Assembly (NCBI GenBank): GCA_900128585.1
Contig: LT642289.1
Span: forward strand, 2,064 to 25,440
Source: Stramenopiles sp. TOSAG23-3
Taxonomy: Eukaryota > Sar
Direction of reading: 5' to 3'
Length of the DNA: 23,377 nucleotides
Under the pieces are notes generated by a model. It was not told the origin of the DNA and did no database searches. It was given only the letters and a program-made list of their open reading frames with translations. A program made the translations under genes and the position numbers. How positions within the stretch are numbered: position 1 is the stretch's first letter; every line of letters begins with the position of its first letter. Below are positions 2,907-23,377 of this stretch, one piece after another.

Positions 2907-5900
2907 TTATTTTCTTGCACCGTTCATATGGCCACACTGATCGTACAGCTTTTTAAATTTTTTAGATTTTTTAGATTTTCGTGTCCCAGATCCTGTTGGG
3001 TTTACAGTATCCGGCGATGATTTTCGTTTCGGGGAGGGGTAGTCAGCAGATTCGAACGGTTGATTTCCACTGCTTCCTGCTCCTTCGCCGGCGCTCGGCG
3101 CACGTGGTTTTGCGTCAATAATTTCAGAGGATGCTGGTGCGGATACTTTCCTGTCCAAGCTGCTGGGGGTTGTGGGTATCACTGGGCTGCTGACGGCAAA
3201 CGATGCGCAGCCCTCACCGAGGCTTCTGTCCAAACTTGGTGGCAGAGGCAATGGTGGACAATTACGTTGCATCGCTTTGGCGCTCGCGCGGTCAGATGGT
3301 GAGGGAGCGAATGTTGCTGCGGAAAGTACATTCCCGCCTATTTTGTCGTTTCCATTTGCAAGAGAGACGCTGGGTGATTCTACATTCAATGTTGATGGAA
3401 CGCTCGCGGAAGTTGGTTGGTCGGAACCTTGAACGCTCATTGAACACAATCCATCTGACAAATACCTGACGTTCTGCGGTCCAGGAGAACTGGTCAGTAT
3501 GCCTTGGCTGTTTCCGCCAATGCTTGGGCTTTTAAGATAGGCCTCGTGAGATTCTTCGTCTGAATCACTGTCGGATGAAGCGCAATATGAACAATGTGAC
3601 AAACTAATAATGTCGTTCTTTAGTGACTGGCCTTGAGAACTTGCAATTAATTGTGACTCAACTGATTCTTGCACCACCAACGTGCTGCCACCACCGCTTG
3701 AGTTGCTCTCGATGGTCCCAGCTATAGAAAGTCCAGAGCTGTCGGTTTCATGTCCACACAAGTGTTCAAAAATATGGTAATCCTGCTCACCGCTCTTGGG
3801 GCAGCACAAGTGGTAAACCCCTTGCAGCAGCGAGTGCCCTTCTTCCGCGTTTGGGTTTTCGAATATGTCGAACGAAGGATTAATGATGGGATCTGACACG
3901 ATGAAAATTACTTTTGATTTAGCCCTAGTAAGTGCCACGATTAATCGGTTACGGGAAAACAAGAAACTGCTTTCTGCACGAACCATGCTGCTGTCAACAA
4001 ATCCATAGCATATGATCACCAGCGCAGCTTCTTGCCCTTGCATGCATTCGACAGTGTTTACAGTCACCCCTTCGAGATGCCGCTCAGAGATGCCGTTGAG
4101 TATCGCTTTCCGCTGTACATGGTGCGGTGTGATACAGAACACTCGGCCTTCGTCTTCAGAAGATTCTCTATAGCGGTTGACAATACGTGCAACCAGCTCT
4201 GCTTCGAAACTTCGGCCCTCCTCGTTTGTGAATGGCTCGGGCGCGCTAGAGGCAAGCTTAACCATTGTCACGGCATGCTTTGGGTTTAGATATTGGTTTA
4301 ACTTATCATCCAGAGCACTCCGTGGAGGTGGCGGTTCAAACTTCAGGCGCTCTGCACGGGCATAGACGCCGGCTGCATTCATCCGGCACTTACAGCCGCC
4401 GTTAGAGCAAATTTTGTACGAAGAGTAGCCTAGCGTATGCTCTGTCATTTTCGCGAGCGGGCGGCTCATTCGATGGTTTTCGTTCAGCTGTTTAAAATAA
4501 GACCCATCAGGATCAGCCTGCCCTGCCAGTTCAGTTGCAAGACGATTCTTAAGGTAAGTGAGAAAAGACTCGTACACTCTTGGCTGTGTTATTTCAGCTT
4601 CCAAATCTTTAGGGTACTCCTCGTGGACAATTGGTGCAAGTTGGAAATGGTCCCCAACTACAACTAAGCGCCCCTTGTCCTTCTGCAGCAAATTTATTGC
4701 AAGTGCTGCTTCTGGGACTCTCAACTGGGAAGCTTCATCTACGAACAGCATATCAAATTCATAAGTTTTCTTGGCTGTTTTGTCCAAAAAATTACGCTTG
4801 AAACGGTTGAGTGTCCATACTGTAGCACCAATGACGCACTGCGGGTTATCCTCCAAGAACTTCGTCATGGAATTGGGACGACGAATCTCCACCAATGGTG
4901 CAATTAGCTTGGGGTCGGCCTGTATCCATACCAGCCTTCCGCCAGCAAGTAATCGAACTTTGTATCGGCTCGATTCAACATCAACTTCGATTACTGTACC
5001 TATGGCCCAATCTCCGCTATATTTTACAACGCATTCGTCACCCGGACGATATACCTTTTTCTGAGGACTATTTTGCATTTTGCAAACCCTCACCGTATCA
5101 TCTAGCTTTCTAATTTTCTTTAACAAGTTGTTGATTGCCTCGTGTGTTGCAGCCGATACCAGTATCCGGAATGGCACATTTGCTAATATGAAAATTCGAA
5201 TCAGTTGAACTATTGTGCTTCCCGAAAAGAAAGTTTTGCCACTTCCTGGGGGTCCCCAAACAATTACTAGTCGGTGAGTTCGAATGGCCTCAAATATGTC
5301 GCTCTGTGAACTAGTCATTGAGAGCCCTGTTTTGCAGTCGCCCCCGTGTGTATTTATTGGTCCCTGGAAAGCCTGCAGGGCCGCAGTGTTCTTTCGCAGC
5401 CGTTCGCACCAAGCCAAAGGAGAATTCATGACGTACCAATAAGTGCTTACTTGAAGGCACCCAAATGCTTTGGCTTCGTCCGAAATGTAATTTTGAAGCT
5501 TTTGTGTGTTGAAATCTACGAAACGTGCGTGAACAGAGAATAATTTGTTCCGGTGGTTGCGAAAGTTGATGCCCGATGCTCTTTGAAACTGATGTTTGCC
5601 ATTTTTCTTCTTCTTCTGCATAATTGTGAGATTAAGTGTCACCAAATTATTTTCCTTGTCGATTTTGACAACTCTGCAAAAGCATAGTGGCCAATTGCAA
5701 CCGGGGTGCATGTTATAAGCTCGGTTGCACATACGCAAGTCGCTGTACTTCACAATATTTTGCTGCAACTTATTATTGTCTTTTCCCTCGACTAAAATGT
5801 AAGGACATGCCCCAAATTTGCAGTCGTCCAAGCTATCGATTCCAGCGATACATCGGAAGATAACGTCGCCCGAAATATTTTCATAGAGATATTTGCCATC

Positions 5901-8782
5901 TACTGATCCATCAGCGTATGCTTCAAAACGCAATACTGCTATTTTATCTTGTGTAATCTGATTTGGCAACGACGTTGTTCGGGACTGTAATTTTTCCCTA
6001 TATCTAGAAAGGAATTCAAAGTCAACAAAAAATCGCATTTTTTGGTACATAATGTCCTCAAATTGCAGCGGTGGGTCGACTTTAAGCGTGTCCGCTTCTT
6101 TCGGCAAAAACTTGGCAACGCCACGGCCAGGGGCTCTTAGGGCGCACAAAAGTGCGTTGCAAGCGCTTAACTCCCTCAGCAAGAGCGCTTTTAGTCGTTT
6201 GTATTTGTCGTCACTGACGCGGGCTTTGAATGCGTGCGCTAGCGCCCATGACTCGTAGATCCCCTGCTCCCCGAAACTGTCTAGCGCCTGTTCGTACGCT
6301 TCGGGGGAAATGTCGAGCGGCTTGTTACACAAACACTTCATTACGTCTTTCACGGTATAAAATGATGGAATCGGTAAAGCCACAAGTTTTTTTATTTCTT
6401 CCAATACGACGGAAAAACGTGGAAGCACATCTTGAAGTGCCTGCGTTTTCATATCCGGCTGGTGCTTCCAAACAATGTCGTCTGCTGTGTGCATCAGAAC
6501 GTACAAACATTTGAGGGTATTTTCAAAACCCACTTGATTCGGATCTGAGCCTTCTCTCTTGTAAGTTTCCAGCAAGTCAATCAACGAGGATACAATTGTT
6601 GCTGCAGTGTTTCTGTCTACAACATAGAACGACGTTTTTGGCTTCGATTCTGGGTTCAACTCCGTCAGTTCATCCATAATTTCTACCATGTCAGAAACGA
6701 ATTTTTTCATCAGTCCTCGGGACGCCTCCATGAATGTTTCGAATTTTTTAACCATATTCACGGGTCCTTGTGATTGTTTCGCCCCCTCCGGCGATTGTCT
6801 CTCATCCCCTTCGTTCCTTTCGGGGGCCATATTGGACGGTCGCGGAATGACTTCAAAATAAGTTTTTGTCCACTGATTGTAGCTGTAGTCCGTTCCTGGT
6901 GCATTTGCACCAGATCTGGTGCAAATGCAGTAGGAATATACACAATCGGAGCGCAAATCTTTCGGCATGGCAATAAAAACTCCCCAATCTTCTTCATTCG
7001 GAATTTGAAGACTGTATGCGCCTGTGGGATAAAACACCTGCTTTTTCCAACGGTCATCTGCCTTCGAACGGTTTGTATTGTATTCCTGCAAAGCTTTCAG
7101 CTTTGGAATGCCCCCGTCCAGCAGACCGCAAGCGTCGAACTTGACACCAAGTGTCGCACTCAAATTCCTTCTTTCTTCGAGCGACGTGGATGGATTTCCG
7201 ACGTCATTGCCTTCTACGTGTTCGCTTGCTTTTAATTGCGCCAGGCACTTGCTCAGGCTTTCGATATCTTCGCATGCGCCAACTGCAGGTGCAATGCTGT
7301 GGTTCCCCGCCAATGCCTCATTTTTTCTCCCGACAAAACTTTCGAGCCATTCTTTCTGCTCCCGCTCTATGTGCGGGATCTGCGAAAGCGTTTTCTTCTT
7401 GCTGGCTTCCGTTCTGCACTTATCAAACCAGCGGCAGCCCACACAACGCTCAGAAAAATGCCACTTTTGAACACTGTGCCCTTTTGTATAGTTTTCTTCC
7501 GTCAGAATAGTCGGCAATGTATGTTCGATGAATCGGTCCAGTGCTGGGATCATATCGCACAAGGAAAACATGGAGGGGGCCGTTTTACCATTCAACCACA
7601 CACCTGCAACATCAGAAATCTTTACCTGCGTTTTGTACGTCGTGTTTGTGACTTCGACTATTTTGCGCAGTGCGATACCGTAAAACGTTACTTGCGCGCG
7701 ATGTTCGAGTTTGATGTACCTTGACGCTTTTGCGTCAATTACAACTGCAATTCGTTCCTTCTTCTCGTTTTCTTCTATCACGATTAAATCTGGCATAAAG
7801 CGGGTAAACTTGACTGCGCCCTTCAGCTCATTTTCGTAAAACTCGGGGGGGACCTGGAACAGGGTTTGAAACAGGACGGTGCCTGAAAAGGGGGGTGGGG
7901 TATAAGTCAGCGATGCCATGAATGAGACATGTAAAGAAGGGTTGAACAAAGTAGATACTTACCAACTTCTGCGGTATGTAAAAGCTCCCGGGAACGACGG
8001 GCCTGGACCAAATAGAACTTACATGTATCGTCGTGCCGCTCCTCGGGAAATTTGCAACGGCACTTAGATCGTGTTCTTGCCAGTTTTTCTAAATCGATTA
8101 CCGTCTTTTTATTCAGGTTGGGGGTCTGCAGTTCGTCTCGGGCTGCTTGTACTGGGTTCTGTGCTTTGTTCAGCTCGTGCCACCGTTCAGGCAGGCCAGT
8201 GTTCTGCAAGTGTTCCACCAGCCGGTCCTCCCAGTCAAATCCTTTGTCCAGCACCGACGACATCCGACTGCCCTTGCGTACAATTTCATGCATATCGGTA
8301 GACTTATGGCCCAATAAATTCTGCATTTCACCGCCACCACCACCTTTTACAGCTGAACCTAAATGCAAATAACGCTCACAACCGTAATGAAAGAACCAAC
8401 CAAGCATTGACGGGGATATAAAGAACTTTGGCTGCGAGGTAGTGGGACGATTGTTCCGGGCCGCCGCCCTCGACGCCTTTCGTGCGTTTTCCTGTTCCCG
8501 CCGCCGTTCTTTCCCGTGCAAATGGTCCGTGTAATGTTTCAAAATAGTGTCCAAGTCCAACGCGATTCGTTTTTTGCACGTCTCGCAGCGAATCGCCTGG
8601 AGTTTCGCCTCTAGCCCCTCGCGGAAGTCACTGATAGCAACCATGCTAAACAAGCCATTGGAATCACGAAGCCTTGTTTTCGTTTCTTCGGGGATATTCC
8701 CGGGCAAGGCAGCAATGGCGGCCTCTAGTTGCTCCCCCGGAGCTTCACGTTCATTCACCGCACCGCCACTAATATCGGCCAT
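2907..8782 (-). CDS. DNA2-like Fe-S nuclease / SF1B helicase with Tudor-like insertion (join of 8782-7963 and 7882-2907)
   Basis: Two exons joined through an 80-nt intron give about 1931 aa from ATG 8782. Seen in order: possible C2H2 finger at 66-87 (C66, C69, H83, H87); a RecB/Cas4-type nuclease with C135 in GCERYLHL, D305 in PDL, D323 and K325 in the DAK motif, Q337 and Y341 as QxxxY, then C420, C423, C429 as CxxCx5C; a beta-rich Cys-containing region at about 880-1080; helicase motif I GPPGSGKT near 1150-1157; a Tudor/Agenet-like segment near 1218-1260; motif II DEAS at 1322; GDHFQLAP at 1350; NENHRM at 1407; VECMQGQE at 1551; NRLIVALTRAK at 1585-1595; then about 300 Ser/Pro-rich residues ending in Lys-rich NLS-like motifs. 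Family knowledge: DNA2 and Cas4 use this cysteine spacing to bind a 4Fe-4S cluster; DNA2 resects DNA ends and processes replication intermediates. The motif V/VI wording differs from classical DNA2, so this may be a distinct nuclease-helicase family with a related plan. The predicted site of action is the nucleus. Confidence 0.88.
6900..6929. repeat. Perfect 30-bp palindrome inside the nuclease-helicase CDS
   Basis: TGCATTTGCACCAGA is followed directly by its exact reverse complement, with no spacer. It occupies exactly ten codons of the gene, residues 592-601 (CICTRSGANA). The flanking bases (G at 6899 and G at 6930) do not pair, so the palindrome has sharp ends. Confidence 0.97.
7883..7962 (-). 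other. Spliceosomal intron (80 nt, phase 1) in the nuclease-helicase gene
   Basis: On the minus strand the exon ends at 7963 in ...GAAGTTG, followed by the consensus donor GTAAGTATC. The intron ends in CCCCCCTTTTCAG at 7883, with a branch-like CTGAC about 25 nt upstream of the acceptor. The first exon leaves one extra base (820 nt = 273 codons + 1) and the second begins at codon position 2, so splicing restores one frame and makes GGC (Gly274). The join links the first Fe-S cysteine (C135) to the DAK nuclease motif and the other three cysteines, which is strong independent support. Unspliced, the frame stops at 7907. Confidence 0.93.
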
Positions 8783-12347: not shown

Positions 12348-15300
12348 ATGTTGAAACGAAAAATTTTTGAGCTCTTGAACAGTGACGTGTTCGATGATGG
12401 AAGAGGGGGCGGGGCGTCAGGATCCCCGGGCGGCAACTGGAAGCAGCGGAACAACAGTTTTGGAGTGAACAGGGGCGGGGCGAGGGCGGAGTCCCTTGAT
12501 GCGTTGAAGCGGGGGATGCAGTCGCTCGCTGCGGAGAAGAGGGGCAGCAACGAGTGGCTGCGGGAGGTGAAGGTGGCGAGCGCCCTCGCCCGTCATATTG
12601 TAAATAACTCAAAGATACCGGGGTGGTACTGCCCCGCCACGATACAAGAAACCGTGGACGCCGCCGCCCACATTTCGAAAACCTACCCCTTCTGCCCGGC
12701 CAGCTTCGTCACGAAGCTGTACCAGAACCACTGCGGCACGTACGCGGTTCCCCTCGGGCTCGGGTGGGGCCTGCACGTGAAGGGGCTCGCCGCGTTCGAG
12801 CAATTTTTGCTGCAGTCGTCGAAAGGTTTGGCCAGAGTTTGGCTGGAAGCAGTGAAAACGGCCCACGCGGAAGCGCCGTGGGGCTCGGAGAGGTCGGCGT
12901 ATGCGCTCTGGCTGCGGCACGCCACGACGTTCTTGCTGCAGTGCTGCTCCCCAACGCACACGGTTGGGGCGGAGGCGAAGCGGAGGCTGCTGTCTCGAAA
13001 CGCCATGGCAACCGTGAACGAGATGCGCCTAAGGAGCGACAGAGACCGAGACATGCCGCTGCTGCTGATCTATTTGTTAAAAACCGTGGACGTGGCCGAC
13101 GACGGCAGCAGACGACTGTGGCTGCGGACGTTCCAGCTGTCCACGCTGAAGAACATCCTTCGGCTGCCGTCCTCTACGGAGCCGGTGCCGGGCGCCCCCC
13201 GGGAGAGCAGCCTGTCCCCCGCTTCGTCCGCGGAGGACCGGCTCCCAACCGTGCTGGACGCGCTGAGAACATTTGTCGCCCAAATACAGTTAGAGGTCGT
13301 CATGGAAGGCTTGCAGTTCCTGCTGAATGAATCGGAGTCCATGCTGGAAGTAAACTGGTGCCTCATGAGGGAGTGCGTGGGGATGGTGATCGCCAAAGGC
13401 CAGGAGGGCGAGAGGGAGAAGGTTTTGCACGGGTTCCTGTCCCTGTCGAAGGGCCTTTGCGTTGCAAAGATCAAGGAAGGCCTCGTGGCGGTAGTCGCGT
13501 CGAATGTGCGGTTCGTTCAATGCCTTCTCCCTTTCATAGCAGGCAAAGGTTACAAGACGTTCTTCAAGGACATATTTGCGCGACCCTCCAAGGGCAGGGA
13601 CGGTGGCCGCGCCGGGCCATCTTCTCGGCCGGAAAGCGTGCTGAAGCCCCTGGTGGTTGGGAACAAGGATGGGGGGAACGTCTACGGTGCAGGGCGGGAG
13701 ATTCTGGGAAAAGGGTCGTACGATTTGTACGTGGAGCCCAGCAAACGGACCGTTTCGAGCTTTATCAAGGCCTTGGAGAGCCTTGTTCCCCTGGACAGCG
13801 TCGAGATCTTGCGCCTTAACAAGCACGTCGCCCTTTCGTTTCGCCTGGATTTTCGAGACTTGGTTGCCGACTACGTGGGCCTCGTGAATGCCCGCATCGA
13901 CGATTTGTGCACCTTGGCGCCCGACGATGGCCCGGGAAGCAGCGCAAAGGACCAGATTGCAAAGGACATCGTCGCGTACGTCGACGCGTTCCACACCTCG
14001 GGACAGGTCCCGAAATCCTTGGCGCAGACGGCCGTCTTCCGAAGGCAGTACTTTGTAAAAAGAGTTATCCCCGTCCTCCTCTCGTCCTCCCAAGTGTTTA
14101 TCAGCGATGCAGAGTACAATTTTCACAGAGAAAAGCGGCGGCTCATTGCTGCCCTGGCCGAAAAGTCGATTCTGCCCGCGAGCGTCTACTCCTCGTTCCT
14201 GCGGACGAGCCAAAGCAGCGAGAACCAGATGTCCCAGAGCAGTGGCAGCGACCGCTCCGCCTCGCTCTTGTCGAAACTGCCCAAAATGGCGCAGTCAATG
14301 GTGCGGGCCCCACCGGGCAAGCAGGACGTCGACGCCTCGGAAACGTACCGCATTAGGCGGCGCAAAACAGTAAAGGCCTGGCGTGCATATTTGGAGAGTT
14401 TGGCGAAAGAGATGATTGAGAAGCACGAGGACCGGGGTCAATTAGGAACGTATGTAATGGAGCTTGTTGACGCGGTCGGCGAATCGATGGTCCAGGTGCT
14501 GAACAGCGGACACGATTTTTCCTGCTGCAAAAAGTGGCTGGTCGACCTGTTTCGTGTGCTGCATCGATTGTTTTGCGATGGAAACATCGCACGTCACACT
14601 GATGGTCCTTGCAACGTGCGTGGCTCACTTGTCGCACAGCGCAGTCTTGGCCGACGACGAGTGCAGCACCAGCCTTTGGGGCCGGAAAGTACTGGCCAAG
14701 GTCGGACGGCAGTTGCTGGAGCTGACGTCGACGGAAACCTTCGTGGCAAACGCGTGGACCTTTTACGAGTACTACTTCCAGGCAGCATCATGGCACTTTG
14801 ACGGGATCGAACTGCAACCTTTGGGGAGCGCGAGGGCGCACGAACGCCAGCCTGCGCCAAACGGGGCGGCCAAAGGTGATTTTCGAGTGGAAGAGAGCAT
14901 CATCGTGTTTTGCCTCGCGTTGGACCGGAATGCAAAGGGCACCGGGGGCCAGTCGTCTGCCATGCGCTCCGTGCTAGGGGCCTTATCCATAAGCTCGTCC
15001 CTGCCGGACACGCTGATACTGGAGACTTGCTTTTTGAAGACGAACCGTCGGTCGATATCCGACGTATTTTGGAGCCACCCTCTATATCCCTTTGGGGACA
15101 TGCACCGAGCGTTTGTAGACATTCTAAAGACCATGCTCTTCCAGCGCGTGTTTCTGAGCACGTACGACGCTGCAACGAGTCACGCTCCCAACGAAATGAG
15201 CCTGGGGAACTGGCGCTCCTCCACGTCGTCCGAGTGGGACGAGGCCACCGCGCCGTTAGCAGCGCACGGAAGCACGGCCACGGAGGGGCGACGAACGGTA

Positions 15301-19046: not shown

Positions 19047-19313
19047 ATGAAGCTTACGCTGAGTTTGCAGCCAGGGAACAAGTTGCAACTTCCAATGGAA
19101 ATTGATGACGACAAGGCGGCTTTGATGACCGTTGCAGATTTTAAGGGAAAAATAATGGAATTTAATAGCTCAAAACCAGCCGAACAGCTACATGTTGTGT
19201 ATGGCAGTACCATTTTGGACGATGGCTGTCTTTTTGCAAAGTATGGTATCAAGGATGGTGACACAATCAAGTTTTTGTTTGCAGCGGTTCAGTCTGGGAG
19301 TGGGAAAGTTTAA
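19047..19313 (+). CDS. Stand-alone ubiquitin-like domain protein
   Basis: 88 aa from ATG 19047; the frame extends four codons upstream, but only to a GTG. Residues 1-80 follow the ubiquitin fold: MKLTLSLQPG as strand 1, a longer-than-usual first hairpin (LPMEIDDDKAALM), VADFKGKIMEF as the helix, PAEQLHVVYGSTILDDG matching the ubiquitin 'p.eqLrLiy.Gk.LeDd' segment, and YGIKDGDTIKFLF as the final strand. The tail QSGSGKV has no Gly-Gly, so it is unlikely to be conjugated like ubiquitin. It more likely acts as an interaction module, as the N-terminal Ubl of Rad23 or Dsk2 does, or is an adaptor. It is convergent with the NRPS-FIST gene, 228 bp away. It could be the first exon of a larger shuttle protein, but no consensus donor is seen before the stop. 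Confidence 0.8.
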   Translation: MKLTLSLQPGNKLQLPMEIDDDKAALMTVADFKGKIMEFNSSKPAEQLHVVYGSTILDDGCLFAKYGIKDGDTIKFLFAAVQSGSGKV

Positions 19314-19541: not shown

Positions 19542-22500
19542 TTACGCTTGCCACTGACGTCCTCGTGCGTCACGTACTCGCACAGATCCGACCGAAATCC
19601 TCTGTTTGCTTTTGCCAAAAAGCAGCAAGGAATACATGAGGTTGCCGTGATGCACACTTCCCCTACCATCTGTCCCCTGTTCACCATATGGTAAAATACC
19701 CATGAACGGCTGGCCTTGCAAACTTGTGGAAAGGTTTTTGGCCACATCATCGATTTGATCGCGGATCTGCAAACTGCAGCCGGCACAATAGAAAGCCAGC
19801 GCGCCCTGAAGTTTCTCACAAAATTCCCCCACCGCCGGCGCCTCAGTTGCGGCCTCGACTAGCTCTACCAGGTCCGTGGATGATGTAGTCATGAGTGTCA
19901 ATTCCTGCCCCGTTGCAACGTCGGCAAATAGCCGGATCCCATTGCTGCTGGTGATCGATTCTGGATGCATCAGTTGAAAGAAATCATCGTCACATCGGCT
20001 CCCCAGCGGCCGCATTGTGGACAGCTGGAAAAGCTTGTTGCCGATAGAAGCAGCTTCTCCTTGCATCAGTGTACATAACTCGTCTACATGGCTCTGGTCG
20101 GCCTTATTTGCATTAGCTGCCGCATCCTCTGAAGTAAGCAGCCACTCTCGATAGACATCACTTGCAGGCTTGCCATCAATCTCGAGTATCTCCCGATGGG
20201 CCTTTTTTGTTACAATGCCGCGGCAAGCGGTCGGCTCGTAGCAGGAGGAGAAGATCGTTGCAGTGTGCACACTGGTCCACAGCATGACAACCGACACACC
20301 ATCATTGCTCACGTCGACACGCTCTCTGTGGGCGGAAGCTACCCACCACCCGTGTGTTGCCAGATCACCAGCAGCGGAACCGCCAATGACTGGCACGTTG
20401 TTAACAACAGTCGCAATACCGGCCAAAATCTCCTCTTCGAAGCCGAAAGTTCCATTTACGATGATGACATCTGGATTGTCAGCGCGCTTGGCGTCACTCA
20501 TGGCCATGTTAGCCGCTTCGCACCCAGCCTCGCGTGCACTCCTTTGTGTGCTCGCGCCCTCCGCAAAACCAAGACCGATGGTTCCTTGGGGGTCCGCGAT
20601 GCCAAGCAGTGCCAGCCTGGATACACCACGGTTGGTGAGAGCCCCGACTTGGGGCACTGACGAGACGCACGCAATCCGTGCGTCCGGAGCCATTAATTGC
20701 AGGCTTCCGACAACCGCTTTTGCATCTAGCGTAGAGTCTGCGGTCACCAGAATTAGCTGTGGCATTCGCCCACTTCGCGAAACAAACTCCCCATATGCGT
20801 CCTGGGCGCACTTTGCTGAGTCGTCCTCGAAGCCTTTGGATGTACCAGTGCAGACACAGAAGTCGTCCATTTTGTCCCGCAGCGATCGCAGTGGGGCGGA
20901 ATTTCGTGGCGATGAACTTGACAAAGTCCTTGACAGTCCTTTTACAGTTCGTACGAAATGAAAGTTGGTTCTAGCAGATTGCCGCGATGGGCGTGCTGCT
21001 GTTTGCAACAGACGCTGCATAATCCGGCCGATAGCCCTGGCTCCAGAGTCACGAACCACAGCATAGTGATCGCCTTCGTACAGGTAAATGGGCAAATTCG
21101 ACAACGGAATACCAGCCATCCCCCAGCCAAAATCACGGCGGCTGTGCCCCGGGTACGCCTGAAGATGGGGATTTGTGTCTGTACCGCGGAGGAGATGCAC
21201 CACCACGCGCTCCGGGTTGCTGCTGTCCAGCTGGGGACGGTACGCTGCGAGTGCCCGAAGGTTGCGCTGGTAGACATCGAACGATTCTGAAAACTCTACA
21301 AGTGACTGTTCCTTGGGCAACACTGAGAGTCGCTGCAGCGCAATGAGCATGTCCTGCCGAGGCGCGGACGACAAACTCAGCGAACTCGCCAATGGCAGCC
21401 TCGACGAGCGTTCATCATGCGCTACAATGTCTTTTGCAAACTGCACGAGTGACGCCGCTTCGTCTTCCAGCACGGTTGTGCCCTCAACGGGTGCTGGGCT
21501 GTCTACGAGTATTACGCTGGCAAGAGACTTGCCCTGCCGACGCAATTGGAGCAGCATCTCTACAGCCAAAACGCCTCCCATAGACCAGCCTCCGAGGGAG
21601 AATTTGTCCTTCCGCCCCTCCGGCAAAGTGTCAAGGTGCTCTAGCACAGCGCCAACAAGGTCGGCAGCAATGCTCTCGAGTGACGCCTGCTCAACATCTC
21701 GGCAAACATGGGTGTGCGAGAGAGCGATAATGGGTTGCTCCGCACCCAAGATATCGGCTAGCTTCTTGTAGCAGAGCGATTCTCCTGTCACGGGCGCGAC
21801 GAAAAATAGGGGAGGCAAGCAGCCAGTCTCATTGTACAACACAGCTACTGTGTTGAACGATGACGTGGATTCACTGACGGAATCGTCCCTTTGGAGCCAG
21901 GTAGCGAGGGCAGCGATGCTGTCGTGCTTTTGCAGCACCTCCAAGGGCACGCGCTGGCCGAACGCGTCCTTGACCTTGTACCGCATCTGCAGCAGCTTGA
22001 TCGACGATCCCCCCAAAATTTTACTAAATGCCTCCATCACGCCAAAGCCCCCCTTTCCCAGCACAGCCTCCCATATCTCCCGGAGGCGAGTTTCTGTATC
22101 GTTGCGTGGCTCAACGTGCTGCAGCCCGGTGGTGGACTGCAGCTGCTGTTCCTCTAGGTGCGCTCCGAGTTTTTTGAGTGCCTGTCGGTCGACCTTTCCA
22201 GACACACTGACGGGGAATTCCGGCAGCAGCACTATGTACTGTGGGACCATGTAGTATGCCACTCGGCTCTTGAGGCCCTCTTGCACAGCGTCAAGCACTA
22301 ATGCCTTCTTCGCCTCGACCGTCGGCGCGTCCGTGTCCACACAAACAACAAATGCGACGAGCTGCTGCGCTCCCTTCTTTCCTACAGGCATACACAACGA
22401 GCTTTTGACCACACTGTCAACAGCATTGATTGCAGCCTCTACCTCACCGATTTCCACGCGGAAACCGTTTATTTTAATTTGAAAGTCTGTGCGGCCGAGG

Positions 22501-23377
22501 ATCTCGATGTTTCCGTCCGAATAAAGGCGACCGAGGTCGCCAGTTCGGTAAATAAGTTCTCCACCCAACGCTTCGCATTGGACGAAGGCCTTCTTCGTCT
22601 TTTCCACATCGCCCCAGTATCCGCAGGCCAGCCCGTCTCCCCCGATACAGATCTCCCCCGATACAAGATCCGGCACAGGTTCCAGCGTCTCGGTGTCTAG
22701 AACGAACATTTTTTGATTGCCCAAGGCACTGCCATATGGAATACTTGTCCACTCTGAACAGATATCGCCAATTGGATACCAGCATGACCAGATTGAGGCT
22801 TCGGTGGCACCACCTAACGAGATTATAGAAAGGCCTTCGGTTGACAGAAGCTCTTTGAGGGTACTTGCCATTGTTAGAGGAATGAAATCCCCCGATAATA
22901 GTACAAGCCGCAGGGGAAGGCATCTGAAGCGCTCGCGGACCTCATTCGACGAGCCAACAAAGTCAAGCATCATCGTCATCACAGGGGGAGCCGTGTTCCA
23001 AATTGTTACCTGATGCTTCTCGAGCAAGTCGAGCCAGTGCGCGGGGTCCCCCTTTAGCCTATGGTCGGGCATGACTAGTGTACCACCGGTTGCCATGACA
23101 CCAAAGATGTCATACACTGATAGATCGAAACTCAACGCAGCAAGAGAGAGGACTTTGTCTTTGGCCGTGACTCCAAAGCGTTCATTCATATCAATGCATG
23201 TATTGGAACCGCCAGAGTGTGGGATCTTGACGCCTTTTGGCTTGCCCGTGCTACCGGAGGTAAAAATAATGTAAGCGAGGTCGCTCAACTGCACCTGACC
23301 TGCCTCATCGTCAACGCCTGGCAAGAAGTGTGCTTCTGGTGACTCCTCTGCCACCAAAATGATCCGCACTGCGCTCA
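19542..23377 (-). CDS. NRPS-like protein: adenylation (Cys code) - carrier - thioesterase - FIST sensor; 5' end outside window
   Basis: The frame is open to the right edge, so the N-terminus is missing. Numbers count from codon 23369. Seen: adenylation domain with A3 YIIFTSGSTGKPKGV (33-47), A4 FDLSVYDIFG, A5 LGGATEASIWS, A7 YRTGDLG, A8 GRTDFQIKINGFRVE and A10 SGKVDR; code residues D82, L83, Y86, N125, L157, S159, L185, I193, W194, K392 spell DLYNLSLIWK, the classical cysteine code. Carrier domain at about 418-495 with LGGSS, S456 as the phosphopantetheine site. Type I thioesterase at about 516-785 with GWSMG (S596), D623 and H768 (EGDHYAV). FIST_N at about 835-1055 (LILVTADS, PVIGGSAAGD) and FIST_C at about 1056-1252 (GKPASDVYREWL, GILPYGEQG, HHGN). 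Family knowledge: A-T-TE modules load, hold and release an amino acid or peptide; FIST is a sensor domain thought to bind small ligands, known in bacterial signalling proteins and eukaryotic FBXO22. Inference: a cysteine-derived product made and sensed by one chain. Upstream C or Cy domains may lie beyond the edge. A bacterial origin of the module is possible. Confidence 0.93.
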   Translation of the reverse strand, partial: SAVRIILVAEESPEAHFLPGVDDEAGQVQLSDLAYIIFTSGSTGKPKGVKIPHSGGSNTCIDMNERFGVTAKDKVLSLAALSFDLSVYDIFGVMATGGTLVMPDHRLKGDPAHWLDLLEKHQVTIWNTAPPVMTMMLDFVGSSNEVRERFRCLPLRLVLLSGDFIPLTMASTLKELLSTEGLSIISLGGATEASIWSCWYPIGDICSEWTSIPYGSALGNQKMFVLDTETLEPVPDLVSGEICIGGDGLACGYWGDVEKTKKAFVQCEALGGELIYRTGDLGRLYSDGNIEILGRTDFQIKINGFRVEIGEVEAAINAVDSVVKSSLCMPVGKKGAQQLVAFVVCVDTDAPTVEAKKALVLDAVQEGLKSRVAYYMVPQYIVLLPEFPVSVSGKVDRQALKKLGAHLEEQQLQSTTGLQHVEPRNDTETRLREIWEAVLGKGGFGVMEAFSKILGGSSIKLLQMRYKVKDAFGQRVPLEVLQKHDSIAALATWLQRDDSVSESTSSFNTVAVLYNETGCLPPLFFVAPVTGESLCYKKLADILGAEQPIIALSHTHVCRDVEQASLESIAADLVGAVLEHLDTLPEGRKDKFSLGGWSMGGVLAVEMLLQLRRQGKSLASVILVDSPAPVEGTTVLEDEAASLVQFAKDIVAHDERSSRLPLASSLSLSSAPRQDMLIALQRLSVLPKEQSLVEFSESFDVYQRNLRALAAYRPQLDSSNPERVVVHLLRGTDTNPHLQAYPGHSRRDFGWGMAGIPLSNLPIYLYEGDHYAVVRDSGARAIGRIMQRLLQTAARPSRQSARTNFHFVRTVKGLSRTLSSSSPRNSAPLRSLRDKMDDFCVCTGTSKGFEDDSAKCAQDAYGEFVSRSGRMPQLILVTADSTLDAKAVVGSLQLMAPDARIACVSSVPQVGALTNRGVSRLALLGIADPQGTIGLGFAEGASTQRSAREAGCEAANMAMSDAKRADNPDVIIVNGTFGFEEEILAGIATVVNNVPVIGGSAAGDLATHGWWVASAHRERVDVSNDGVSVVMLWTSVHTATIFSSCYEPTACRGIVTKKAHREILEIDGKPASDVYREWLLTSEDAAANANKADQSHVDELCTLMQGEAASIGNKLFQLSTMRPLGSRCDDDFFQLMHPESITSSNGIRLFADVATGQELTLMTTSSTDLVELVEAATEAPAVGEFCEKLQGALAFYCAGCSLQIRDQIDDVAKNLSTSLQGQPFMGILPYGEQGTDGRGSVHHGNLMYSLLLFGKSKQRISVGSVRVRDARGRQWQA

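Follow-up and report, generated by a model that had tools for sequence, protein, structure and literature searches.

Among the described systems closest to the gene reported here are the cysteine modules of nonribosomal peptide synthetases (NRPSs) such as BmdB (bacillamide), PchE (dihydroaeruginoic acid synthetase) and the enzyme in PDB entry 6LTA, which we take to be the heterocyclisation (Cy) synthetase FmoA3. All three are bacterial, their modules comprise Cy, adenylation (A) and carrier (T) domains, and to our knowledge none of them ends in a FIST domain. Control of NRPS assembly lines is usually exerted through transcription or partner proteins. FIST domains are found in proteins of a different kind: NosP, a bacterial sensor of haem and nitric oxide composed of FIST_N and FIST_C, is a standalone protein with a cognate kinase, and human FBXO22 is a ubiquitin ligase receptor that combines an F-box with FIST and has no biosynthetic domains. 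According to two reports, FIST genes of the NosP setting lie beside histidine kinases and like signalling genes (PMC12570481, PMC8738867). Here we describe a gene that joins an NRPS to a FIST, at the end of a 23,377-nucleotide stretch of DNA from Stramenopiles sp. TOSAG23-3 (the window: bases 2064-25440 of contig LT642289.1, forward strand). Its family resembles BmdB, PchE and 6LTA in a cysteine-type code, a carrier and, in the relatives, a Cy-type condensation domain, but in the window, whose source is very probably a eukaryote, the module is followed by a thioesterase (TE) and FIST.

On the minus strand of the window, one open frame of 1277 codons plus a stop encodes the order A (part)-T-TE-FIST_N-FIST_C, as assigned with Pfam. 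The contig, one of 660 in the assembly, terminates at the last base of the window and cuts the 5' end of the gene, so that the A domain is incomplete and the condensation part lies outside. When the bases of the stretch occupied by the gene were shuffled 200 times, the longest open frame to arise had 298 codons; the remaining two forward frames contain one stop each within codons 780-860, around the TE/FIST junction. An earlier reading of the window made from its letters alone (the sequence-only reading) had proposed a single uninterrupted frame, in which NRPS domains are followed by a FIST_N plus FIST_C pair. The frame and its location were correct, the strand, which had been left unstated, being the minus one, and in the Pfam scan suggested there AMP-binding, PP-binding, Thioesterase, FIST and FIST_C all match, the last two far above their cut-offs and in the proper order (Table 1), contrary to the refuting outcome named there, an absence of FIST hits in residues 835-1252. 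Intact active-site residues, also claimed, are found in the carrier and the TE, where they are conserved, whereas the A domain is only partial; the eukaryotic host that had been assumed is very probable.

The same architecture recurs in other proteins. Among the best 120 of 1642 matches of a protein search, at least nine database proteins (P0001-P0005 and P0007-P0010) combine NRPS domains with FIST_N, eight of them also with FIST_C, at 37-81% identity to the protein from the window; an assembly accident is therefore unlikely. P0001 (81% identity, 1858 residues) comprises Condensation, adenylation, carrier, thioesterase, FIST and FIST_C, the fullest relative, P0009 (37%), has an additional N-terminal carrier and only one A domain (carrier-Cy-A-carrier-TE-FIST), and P0005 is a EukProt record. 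P0007, whose second FIST half is out of frame, was left out of the Pfam scan and alignment of the relatives and included in the A-domain tree. The TE-FIST junction is unbroken in all eight aligned relatives (P0001-P0005, P0008-P0010), so the in-frame fusion of a cysteine-type NRPS to FIST, as originally proposed, is conserved across divergent proteins. P0006, which carries no FIST, shows an insertion in the A domain and a garbled end past the TE, as though introns had been read through.

A second search, with the FIST part only against long proteins, gave six matches, five of which belong to the NRPS-FIST family. The sixth, P0121, resembles them in carrying a FIST of the same clade fused to a larger protein, but differs in having a kinase and leucine-rich repeats (LRRs) in place of NRPS domains; a FIST of this kind is therefore found as part of two or more unrelated proteins. 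The earlier statement that an NRPS ending in FIST is undescribed agrees with the literature on the FIST domain and nonribosomal peptide synthetases, part of it available as titles and abstract beginnings only, in which no description of this architecture was found; nor was anything found in the literature joining protists, heterocyclization and nonribosomal peptide synthetase.

By motif alignment, the specificity code of the A domain is DLYNLSLIWK, which we take to be that of cysteine. The code is identical in P0005 and P0008, has one difference in P0001, P0004 and P0009 and three in P0010 (DLFNMSMIWK); P0002 and P0003 are incomplete here, and P0006 and P0007 lie outside that alignment. In P0001, P0009 and P0010 the condensation domain has FDLLVAD or FDLLIAD and lacks HHxxxD, and a DxxxxD-type motif in place of HHxxxD presumably marks a Cy domain. 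Against PDB sequences, P0001 matches among others BmdB, dihydroaeruginoic acid synthetase and 6LTA, and the top PDB match of the window's A part alone is linear gramicidin synthase A. Carrier Ser458 and the candidate TE triad, recognized by motif as Ser598 (GWSMGG), Asp625 and His770, are common to all nine aligned sequences (the window protein and eight relatives). The A domain thus reads as cysteine-specific, and the protein is best explained as the C-terminal part of a cysteine-activating, heterocyclising-type NRPS. From the cysteine code, the Cy-type motifs of the relatives and the PDB matches of P0001, a 2-substituted thiazoline carboxylate is the likely product: an acyl group on an upstream carrier would be condensed with cysteine, closed to the thiazoline and released by the TE. 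The window's module is cut before its Condensation domain, and neither such a domain nor a phosphopantetheinyl transferase (PF01648) was found elsewhere in the assembly, which may be incomplete. At residues 450-456 (about 22008-22028, minus strand) the window protein has one extra residue before the carrier GGSS compared with all eight aligned relatives; it adjoins a run of G and represents a lineage change or a sequencing error. The same genome encodes a second adenylation-carrier protein of at least 974 residues (L005, contig C571), whose C-terminal part resembles, by appearance alone, a membrane segment plus a left-handed helix acyltransferase.

The bacterial relatives of the FIST tail point to its origin. 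The scan covered 84,980 bacterial and archaeal species, each represented by a single genome, and used the pattern G[AC]L[AIV]xYC[AG]GC, which restricts it to one FIST group; 104 pattern matches yielded 94 relatives, and 80 loci were kept, many of them with less than 8 kb of flank. The YC[AG]GC motif of these loci was selected by the pattern and is for this reason not evidence. Seventy-nine of the 80 loci have a frame of FIST size, 243-478 codons, with a few truncated at contig ends. The idea of a bacterial cluster holding both NRPS and FIST was rejected, as a Cy-A-T-TE match at E 1e-3 occurs in none of these 80 loci, chosen by one pattern and many with short flanks. A same-strand frame of at least 150 codons lies within 400 bases in 58 of the loci, and one neighbour cluster (single linkage) recurs in 59. 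The downstream neighbours, 41 of 75, were scanned with Pfam and gave 28 HATPase_c, 24 response regulator, 22 HisKA, 10 GGDEF, 8 EAL and 2 H-NOX matches, 28 of the 41 being histidine-kinase-like. Given the FIST-sized frames, the absence of a matching NRPS nearby and the kinase-like neighbours, the tail descends most probably from a NosP-like sensor, from which it differs in being fused to an NRPS, the kinase context being found only in its bacterial relatives. The view of FIST as a sensing domain, already taken in the sequence-only reading, is strengthened, since the bacterial FISTs adjoin kinases and other signalling genes in the manner of auxiliary sensors. Two H-NOX (haem-NO-binding) genes directly follow the FIST gene (L066:8805-9353 and L073:5765-6313), and the neighbour cluster containing the latter spans five of the 80 loci. 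The remaining frame, L056:6759-9137, has 794 codons; its N-terminal extension of about 400 residues has no match in Pfam. A viral origin was also considered and rejected: the FIST pattern, run on viral contigs, matched 18 times and brought up no relative.

The FIST domains and the A domains each fall into a single, well-supported clade, and the subclades of the two largely agree; the fusion therefore looks old and inherited. The 15 eukaryote-like FISTs are grouped together (99 SH-aLRT) in a 53-row tree with 33 of the 80 bacterial loci, as are 12 of them (100/100) in a smaller, more careful 35-row tree with 23 of these loci, rooted on bacteria. In a 59-row tree 13 A domains form one clade with support of 99, including those of P0006, P0011 and P0074, although these records carry no FIST. 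Matching subclades of the 53-row and 59-row trees are P0008+P0009, P0004+P0005 and window+P0001-P0003, and among nine proteins the correlations between the distances of the A, TE and FIST blocks range from 0.97 to 0.99, values inflated by two groups of very unequal depth. P0121 falls inside the FIST clade; a placement outside the NRPS-FIST set is not rejected (approximately unbiased test, p 0.446, 35-row tree). The bacterial rows nearest to the eukaryote-like FISTs come from Chloroflexota and Myxococcota (support 81, 53-row tree). These trees are most simply read as a single fusion event and subsequent joint descent, in which a bacterial NosP-like FIST sensor would have been captured, fused behind the TE and thereafter inherited with the enzyme.

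The FIST tail itself is predicted with good confidence (pLDDT 89.9), and its model matches the three-repeat fold of FBXO22. With VIA-align it matches FBXO22, cyanuric acid hydrolase and chorismatase over most of its length, FBXO22 being the best (root mean square deviation 3.5 over 264 residues, with 14% identity over the structural alignment); Foldseek gives the same ranking, with E 9.7e-10 for FBXO22 but a low TM-score of 0.43 and a deviation of 10.1. A FIST profile search against PDB sequences gave no match at E up to 10, and the link to FBXO22 comes via the fold search only. Cys1197 is no more than a candidate counterpart of C326 of FBXO22. For the comparison of conserved residues, 75 of the 80 bacterial loci passed a length filter of 380-499 codons and were set against the 15 eukaryote-like rows. 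Cys, Glu, His and Asn residues are invariant across both sets, while position 1045 is Cys in 15 of 15 eukaryote-like FISTs and Gly in 75 of 75 bacterial ones, a difference that also separates the window FIST from NosP.

We tentatively favour the view that FIST senses a ligand and gates the thiazoline-forming synthetase in cis, at somewhat short of an even chance; it is suggested by the probable sensor ancestry, by retention of the tail and by the presence of a same-clade FIST on a kinase. The ligand would be small, perhaps haem, nitric oxide (NO), an electrophilic or redox signal or the product of the pathway itself, and its binding by FIST might alter the activity of the synthetase via the flexible linker; with the product as ligand, this would be the self-monitoring synthetase suggested in the sequence-only reading. 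More doubtful, although still conceivable, is the fuller picture of a one-polypeptide sensor-effector of a protist lineage, in which a captured bacterial FIST of NO/haem type gates the NRPS, and a signal (NO, haem, redox state or product) directly sets the production of a small chelating or signalling molecule. Several observations weigh against our reading. FBXO22 FIST has been reported to lack an obvious ligand pocket (PMC11185555). The combined TE-FIST model is weak (pLDDT 64.4, pTM 0.41), so no contact between the two domains is demonstrated. The ligand of the eukaryote-like FISTs may have changed, because residues fixed in bacteria are replaced both at position 1045 and at 907, where Cys gives way to Val or another residue. 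As to joint descent, the nine-protein A tree splits P0004 from P0005, which are paired in the TE and FIST trees of that set and in the 59-row A tree. If sensing in cis is true, the enzyme would carry a sensor in its tail, retained over long divergence, which would amount to a new mode of control in natural product synthesis and give a handle on the secondary metabolism of uncultured protists; with enzyme and putative sensor in one chain, the protein is also a test case for FIST ligands.

Of the competing explanations, the one that survives best, although it seems rather unlikely to us, is storage, carriage or protection of the released product by FIST, without control of the enzyme, the thiazoline being bound as such or in an acyl or aldehyde form; storage had been suggested in the sequence-only reading. 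The position directly behind the releasing TE would suit this role, as would the extra cysteine fixed in the eukaryote-like clade and, by analogy, the FIST cysteine of human FBXO22, which is reported to bind aldehydes covalently (PMC13316043); stoichiometric storage on a huge enzyme would, however, be costly, and the bacterial relatives adjoin signalling genes and none of their 80 loci holds a matching NRPS. Unlikely, too, is a role in docking, by which FIST would bring in a partner (a loading ligase, for example, or the target of the product), much as FBXO22 FIST, the best fold match, recruits BACH1 (PMC11185555). The module needs an outside acyl donor, the fullest relative has an extra N-terminal carrier beside its one A domain, and P0121 couples a same-clade FIST to a kinase with LRRs, but the Cys, Glu, His and Asn residues shared without exception by the bacterial and the eukaryote-like FISTs suggest, without proving it, a small-molecule site and not a changing surface. 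We consider it improbable that FIST acts as a catalyst of tailoring or release, as its fold, that of cyanuric acid hydrolases and chorismatases, might suggest; a common fold shows no function, and the relatives of FIST adjoin signalling genes. It is very improbable that FIST is made or released separately, by an internal start in the linker or by proteolysis, and that the fusion is merely genetic. The linker is Arg/Ser-rich and modelled with very low confidence, and gene models P0122, P0123, P0131 and P0133 begin at a Met in the linker or at its end, P0122 and P0133 on contigs of about 2.9 kb; P0123 and P0131, however, lie on contigs (1.6 and 0.8 kb) that could not hold the NRPS part, the frame is unbroken in the window protein and the eight aligned relatives, and codons 781-870 contain no GTRAG or GTATG splice donor. 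That the fusion is an assembly chimera or a contamination, as the 660 contigs and the gene stopping at a contig end might bring to mind, is rejected as scarcely credible, because other records show the same architecture at 37-81% identity and the A, TE and FIST histories are broadly congruent.

Table 1. Positions in the window of the NRPS-FIST gene, its domains and selected residues
Feature	Positions	Strand	Evidence
Open reading frame, A (part)-T-TE-FIST_N-FIST_C	19542..23375	-	Frame list and Pfam
Adenylation domain, C-terminal 60% of Pfam model, residues 24-254, profile 155-384 of 384	22614..23306	-	AMP-binding 5.5e-51
AMP-binding_C subdomain, residues 311-394, bears code lysine 394	22194..22445	-	23.4 bits, just below cut-off 24.5
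Carrier (PP-binding), residues 430-494, Ser458 in GGSS	21894..22088	-	Pfam 1.1e-6, 29.2 bits vs cut-off 20.8
Thioesterase, residues about 520-795	20991..21818	-	Pfam residues 522-633, 9.6e-13, 49.3 bits vs cut-off 26.4
Linker thioesterase-FIST, residues 794-838, probably disordered, Arg/Ser-rich	20862..20996	-	AlphaFold pLDDT <50, blocks of 24-29
FIST_N, residues 873-1069	20169..20759	-	Pfam FIST 8.8e-19, 68.6 bits vs cut-off 23.2
Cys1045 of SSCY	20241..20243	-	Conservation comparison
FIST_C, residues 1113-1234, YCAGC motif (Cys1197, Cys1200)	19674..20039	-	Pfam 4.2e-16, 59.7 bits vs cut-off 28.5

The window contains several further genes. A small ubiquitin-like protein (PF00240, 28 bits) is encoded at 19050-19310 on the plus strand, convergent with the NRPS-FIST gene. 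The protein encoded at 12348-14801 (plus strand) shows a weak match to the FANCA helical domain (28.6 vs cut-off 28 bits), which fits a eukaryotic source. Two adjacent superfamily 1 helicase-like genes, one with an N-terminal DUF5710, are located on the minus strand at 166-2358 and 2907-7949.

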